From NCBI GenBank assembly GCA_945876035.1, contig CAMCMU010000017.1, positions 1 through 64,000 of the forward strand: a DNA stretch of 64,000 nucleotides. Direction: 5' to 3'. The notes beneath the pieces were generated by a model that was not told the origin of the DNA, did not search any database, and saw only the letters and a program-made list of their open reading frames with translations. The stretch comes from Schlesneria paludicola DSM 18645. Lineage in GTDB: Bacteria > Planctomycetota > Planctomycetia > Planctomycetales > Planctomycetaceae. Shown here in pieces: positions 45,786-46,712 of the stretch (position 1 is the first letter of the stretch; each line of letters starts with the position of its first letter). The position numbers and the translations under genes are program-made.

Positions 45786-46712
45786 ATGCTTGTTCAATCG
45801 TTGCCGATGATGACGCTGGTTGCCATTGTCGTCTCCAGTTCCGTGTTTGCCGTGGATCTCAAGCCGATCGTCGCTCCGCACGCGGAAGTGATTCAGGTTG
45901 TGGAGAACGGCCGATTCACCGAAGGTCCGGCCGATTCGCCTCGCAGTCTTGTCGTCCTCGAGGCGAACGGGGCATCGATCGGTCGGATACCGGTTCCGGA
46001 ACATCCCGCCAATGGCACGTTTGGCCGAGCGGAGGGGCAAACCTTGTTGCTGACGGCGAGGACGAGTCTGTATCCAATACCGATGAGTGTGGCCGGAGCC
46101 CCATTGGCAGCTTCCGGACCGGATCGGGCGCGGTCCGTCCGTCAATACGCCCCACGCCGTCGCTCGATTCGCGGGCCAGCACGGTTGGCTCAGGACCAGA
46201 AACAGGACTCCGCGCCGACCACGGACGTGATCATTCAAGACATCACTCTGAAAATTCCGACGTCGTGGAAGTCGGAGCCTCCGGCGACTTCGATGCGACT
46301 TTCTCAATTCAAAATCCCAGCCGCCGCAGGGGATCAATATCCCACCGAATTGGTGATTTCGTCATTTCGCGGTGGCGGAGGTGGTGTCGCTCCGAATCTC
46401 AAGCGTTGGGTTGATCAATTCCTTGTGGAAGGCCGAAACGTGAAAGTGACAACAGGGACTTGCCCACAGGGCAAGTACTACTTCAGCAATGTCAGCGGCA
46501 CTTACGAATTTACCGCAGGAGGACGGTTCCCGGGCGGCAAGAAGGAACCGCGTCCAAAACATCGTTCGCTGAGCGTCGTCCTCGAAACCGACAAGAAAGA
46601 AGTCTATTTTCTCAGACTTACCGGCACGGAAAAGGCTGTCACCGAGGCGGCGGAGGGATTCCGAGCCGCGTTTGGCGCGGATCTCACCAAAGAAACCGAT
46701 TACGAGATCTAG
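45786..46712 (+). CDS. Chimeric ORF: collapsed SMP-30/gluconolactonase fused to an exported protein
   Basis: A 308-residue frame with two origins. Residues 1-23 are a signal peptide. Residues 24-52 match the start of SMP-30/gluconolactonase proteins (FTEGPADSP at 44-52). Residues 59-105 match the family C-terminus (IGRIPVPEHPANGTFG and LLLTARTSLYPIPM). The central four to five propeller blades are missing, joined in frame near residues 53-58. From about 145 the sequence is a different secreted-type protein (ITLKIPTSWKSEPP, YPTELVISSFRGGGGG, GKYYFSNVSGTYEF). I read it as an internal deletion plus fusion, with the second part now carrying a borrowed signal peptide. It has no known function. Confidence 0.65.
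   Translation: MLVQSLPMMTLVAIVVSSSVFAVDLKPIVAPHAEVIQVVENGRFTEGPADSPRSLVVLEANGASIGRIPVPEHPANGTFGRAEGQTLLLTARTSLYPIPMSVAGAPLAASGPDRARSVRQYAPRRRSIRGPARLAQDQKQDSAPTTDVIIQDITLKIPTSWKSEPPATSMRLSQFKIPAAAGDQYPTELVISSFRGGGGGVAPNLKRWVDQFLVEGRNVKVTTGTCPQGKYYFSNVSGTYEFTAGGRFPGGKKEPRPKHRSLSVVLETDKKEVYFLRLTGTEKAVTEAAEGFRAAFGADLTKETDYEI

Follow-up and report, generated by a model that had tools for sequence, protein, structure and literature searches.

At positions 45786–46712 of the 64,000-nucleotide stretch of DNA analysed here (the window), the forward strand carries a gene for a 308-residue protein in which the two ends of an SMP-30/gluconolactonase-like propeller stand in front of a second, different domain. 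The locus raises the question of which came first, the joining of the two parts or the loss of the propeller core. A preliminary description, made from the sequence of the window alone, proposed that an internal deletion had fused a gluconolactonase to a secreted protein and so given rise to a new protein. Our comparison with related genomes points to the opposite order. Very probably, the ancestor of the gene encoded an old two-domain exported protein, which lost its propeller core in frame after the split from its sister species (G009), with the second domain remaining.

The gene, an open frame that we aligned with 14 full-length relatives, reads as the remnant of a two-domain exported protein, with all its parts on the forward strand. 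Residues 1–23 (45786–45854) form a hydrophobic, signal-peptide-like segment, judged by eye, that ends in SSVFA; a comparable segment heads the full-length fusions at the same position. An N-terminal SMP-30 remnant follows (residues 24–52; 45855–45941), in which the TEGP motif with Glu46 is kept, and then the deletion junction at codon 53 (45942–45944), where 195 codons are absent between residues 52 and 54. Beyond it lie a C-terminal SMP-30 remnant (residues 54–106; 45945–46103) and a linker (residues 107–145; 46104–46220) that the alignment also places in the full fusions, with a mean identity of 45%. The remainder is a conserved C-terminal domain (residues 146–308; 46221–46709) without a Pfam or NCBIfam family, whose own family profile matches residues 145–308 with an E value of 3.8e-85.

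The nature of the N-terminal part emerged from comparison with L004, a full-length relative from the same genus (genome G012). In single pairwise comparisons, residues 24–58 match residues 24–58 of L004 at 46% identity (E 2e-7), and residues 53–106 match its residues 248–301 at 67% identity (E 2e-21). Both remnants also match an SMP-30 profile built from the fusions, at the profile's two ends. To judge from these matches, both are related by common descent to the SMP-30/gluconolactonase family (PF08450). The PF08450 profile does not recognize the window protein above cut-off: Pfam searches of the whole ORF or of residues 1–106 gave zero matches up to an E value of 10, PF08450 included, and Pfam and NCBIfam searches of the whole ORF and of both halves returned no family match. 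Residues 1–106 searched against genome contigs found a single, uninformative Streptomyces locus (30% over residues 11–79).

Intact counterparts are common in the genus. In our sample of 15 genomes (the window genome, G000, and 14 congeners), 12 of the 14 congeners carry a fusion of about 500 residues in which a signal-like segment at the N-terminus is followed by the complete SMP-30 propeller (PF08450), the linker and the same C-terminal domain. The best-matching ORF in these 12 splits the window query into residues of about 8–58 and 53–308, with a gap between them. The full fusion also occurs outside the genus, in a second (G015) and a third genus (G029). PF08450 matches three full-length relatives from two genera with E values of 8.8e-45 to 3.1e-50 over profile positions 1–244 of 246, and among solved structures the nearest relative is 3E5Z, a putative gluconolactonase (E 4e-37). 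We found no account of a fusion of SMP-30 with this C-terminal domain in published papers.

These relatives allow the gap to be measured. The interval from TEGP to the GRI motif spans 217 codons in all seven relatives measured and 22 in the window, so that 195 codons (585 bp) are gone, in frame. In the alignment with the 14 full-length proteins, the missing segment begins immediately behind SP52 and ends immediately ahead of S54; codon 53 could be assigned to the left side (SPK) or to the right (YKS). A short sequence shared at the two ends of the break is possible, the sister gene being too diverged to show one. Other SMP-30-like matches in the window genome, where five distant SMP-30-like genes were found, share no more than 42% identity with the two queries, compared with 75–81% for relatives with the orthologous gene. 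Thus no close copy at another locus has taken over the activity. In these respects the preliminary description holds up: it had recognized the start and end of an SMP-30/gluconolactonase protein around a missing core, had taken residues from about 145 to 308 for a different protein, had seen no other frame nearby encoding the lost blades, and had placed the junction within 45935–45965, a range that includes codon 53.

What does not hold up is the order of events. In a tree of the C-terminal domain, the window protein is sister to full-length G009 (bootstrap 98) within a clade of fusions, and a FastTree phylogeny of rpoB and AlaRS pairs the same two genomes with a support of 1.0. By alignment and branching alike, the window gene descends from a full-length fusion with the C-terminal domain at the protein end. 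The presence of that fusion in the sister species, other congeners and two other genera indicates that it predates the deletion. Read by itself, the ORF does have the look of a gluconolactonase fused by the deletion to a separate gene for a secreted protein, with fusion and export created together. Yet the complete fusion, signal-like head included, is found in the sister species, in 11 more congeners and in two other genera, and the free-standing forms of the second domain that were read in other genera have no SMP-30-like frame within about 3 kb. This origin is hardly credible, and the full-length fusions that surround the window gene in the trees already speak decisively against it. Of the proposed fusion by internal deletion, then, the in-frame loss of the propeller core stands, but the join was not made by it. 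Instead of a new protein having arisen, an old one appears to have lost a part. Because a signal-like segment headed the fusion beforehand, the deletion did not bring a signal peptide to the second protein or rescue its export, as had been suggested. Where a full SMP-30 gene next to a free-standing second gene had been expected in relatives, a single fused ORF of about 500 residues is found.

What remains of the propeller can be compared with the known active site. SMP-30 binds its metal through Glu18, Asn154 and Asp204, with Asn103 as an additional ligand in 3E5Z and related enzymes (PMC3551927). Our alignment assigns Glu18, Asn103, Asn154 and Asp204 to TEGP, NSPND, RPNG and GPDGM of the fusions, respectively. 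Only the glutamate of TEGP (E46) is kept in the window; the deletion took the segments that bear the other three. With one of the four positions left, the window propeller cannot act as such an enzyme. Among positions invariant in the 14 fusions, 6 of 36 are altered in the remnant and 6 of 40 in the C-terminal domain, and both invariant cysteines have become glycine (C42G and C77G). Scaled to the remainder of its tree, the window branch has a length of 0.26 for the remnant and 0.105 for the C-terminal domain, a difference of about 2.5-fold, with the remnant the larger in 60 of 60 bootstraps. Because the two data sets are short, the topology was kept fixed and variation is seen at other tips as well, this is moderate evidence for relaxed constraint on the remnant. 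Since the C-terminal half of the remnant is still 66% identical to relatives, a release from constraint is not clear. Against G009, dN/dS is about 0.15 for the C-terminal domain and 0.21 for the remnant, at a dS of about 1.5 that is near saturation. The window lineage is also fast overall, with a branch of 0.143 against 0.054 for G009 in the rpoB and AlaRS tree. The window genome is the smallest in the genus sample (4.7 Mb compared with 6.3–9.0 Mb), which, together with this long branch, fits genome reduction.

Could the gap instead be an artefact, with the full gene present in the genome and the contig collapsed across the propeller? The assembly is a draft of 102 contigs and the only genome of its species in the sample, and the junction is one single point. 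However, the gap is in frame and an exact multiple of three, the junction lies mid-contig, at 45.9 kb of 84.6 kb, and the propeller core is on no other contig of a genome that is 96.85% complete. Moreover, the remnant is altered at positions invariant in 14 relatives, both cysteines included, which would be unexpected for an intact enzyme. An assembly error is therefore very unlikely. It is also quite unlikely that the entire gene is a pseudogene on its way to being lost, as the large deletion, the fast lineage and the smallest genome of the genus might lead one to suppose: the frame is open over 327 codons, the C-terminal domain can be aligned over its full length, and against G009 that domain has 61 synonymous and 54 amino-acid-changing codons, with dN/dS at about 0.15.

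A different reading accepts the deletion and gives the remnant a role. In six-bladed propellers of the SMP-30 type both ends adjoin within one blade, and the surviving pieces could fold as the last blade closed by the N-terminal strand, with a structural role for the second domain kept or gained. Both propeller ends did survive, the C-terminal half with its high identity to relatives. Yet the conserved cysteines are both gone, the remnant is faster than the second domain on the window branch, and two congeners (G003 and G004) have no SMP-30 part at all, so we consider a folded remnant of this kind unlikely. We return, then, to the two-domain ancestor and a remnant that most likely is a passive leftover, the exported C-terminal domain being the working part.

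The two exceptional congeners bear on how expendable the propeller is. In G003 and G004 the C-terminal domain stands alone, in proteins of 203 and 209 residues, respectively, and the entire SMP-30 part is absent. The G003 locus is orthologous to those of G001 and G006, with the same flanking genes on both sides, and the G004 locus, on a 3-kb contig, shares its downstream neighbours with them. The G003 gene starts with ATGACCAACTGGAA, preceded by AAGGAT, and resembles the start of the G001 gene, with 23 of 45 bases identical; the best of 244 control ATG positions reached the same identity, so this likeness is a hint and not proof. When the starts of the G003 and G004 genes were aligned with the full-length genes as nucleotides, with gaps allowed, the result broke up into small blocks, and only the C-terminal part was alignable. 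Both trees place the two genomes inside the fusion clade, where G004 splits off before G003, G014 and the G001 group. This nesting and branching order fits two independent complete losses and, counting the window gene, three losses in the genus. The losses in G003 and G004 indicate that the gene can do without the propeller. The more specific proposal that the propeller was lost at least three times in the genus (partly in G000, wholly in G003 and G004), with the 80-residue remnant of the window kept as a small structural module before the second domain, is doubtful.

The congeners do not share the gene order seen around this locus: between 34000 and 58000 of the window, except for the studied gene, almost no ORF matches the 3–18 kb that surround it in relatives. 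In most of the family's other genera the C-terminal domain is free-standing, which may be the ancestral state or reflect further loss. The SMP-30 tree places the G029 propeller with the other fused propellers and not with the G000 paralogues, with modest support, and one old fusion followed by many losses is possible on this branching.

The C-terminal domain is the sole part common to all forms of the protein. Its family profile searched against solved structures gave an antibody fragment as best match (E 0.11), judged to be chance, and Pfam searches of 17 members of the domain family gave isolated weak matches (best E 0.041). AlphaFold prediction of the domain from one sequence had a mean pLDDT of 40, and no fold is therefore assigned. 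The window genome also holds a distant free-standing paralogue (L002; G000:C6:93390–93785) with 29% identity in a 214-residue frame, and most of the genus has distant copies of this kind. G010 carries the domain a second time, as the last part of an ORF longer than 1000 residues (L060, 2981–6001; G010:C1) that contains an FGE-sulfatase domain (PF03781, E 1.1e-98). SMP-30 and FGE-sulfatase partners, and the presence of the domain in all forms, suggest a general exported domain with varied partners.

Our combined findings suggest the following history. The ancestral protein would have comprised a signal segment, a complete six-bladed SMP-30/gluconolactonase propeller, the linker and the second domain, which has no named family. 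Following the split from G009, a single in-frame deletion of 195 codons, or several summing to 195, would have taken the propeller core and with it three of the four metal-ligand positions, leaving an exported second domain with about 80 residues of non-catalytic propeller remnant. The second domain would be the part that still works, propeller activity would be dispensable, and the remnant would be passive and slowly decaying. Domain loss is a known process, seen here in mid-course in a lineage whose genome is small and evolves fast. The gene offers a clear and dated illustration of how the order of events can be inverted when a single gene is read by itself, the fusion being earlier and the deletion later. 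With the propeller expendable and the exported second domain retained, it is the second domain that is the part worth study.

Three known groups of proteins lie closest to the window protein. Its residues 24–52 and 53–106 show homology to both ends of the SMP-30/gluconolactonase family (PF08450; 3E5Z), but it has no Pfam match and has lost the propeller core along with three of the four metal-ligand positions. With the free-standing C-terminal-domain proteins (L017 of G003, L016 of G004 and those of most other genera of the family) it has in common an exported look and the second domain as the conserved part, whereas they have no SMP-30 remnant and it has one. With the full-length fusions of the genus (for example L015 of G009, L004 of G012 and L008 of G001) it shares the order of parts, the signal-like head, the linker, both propeller ends and, at 55–67% identity, the C-terminal domain; in those proteins the propeller and all four metal-ligand positions are intact, whereas the window protein has lost 195 codons and both conserved cysteines.
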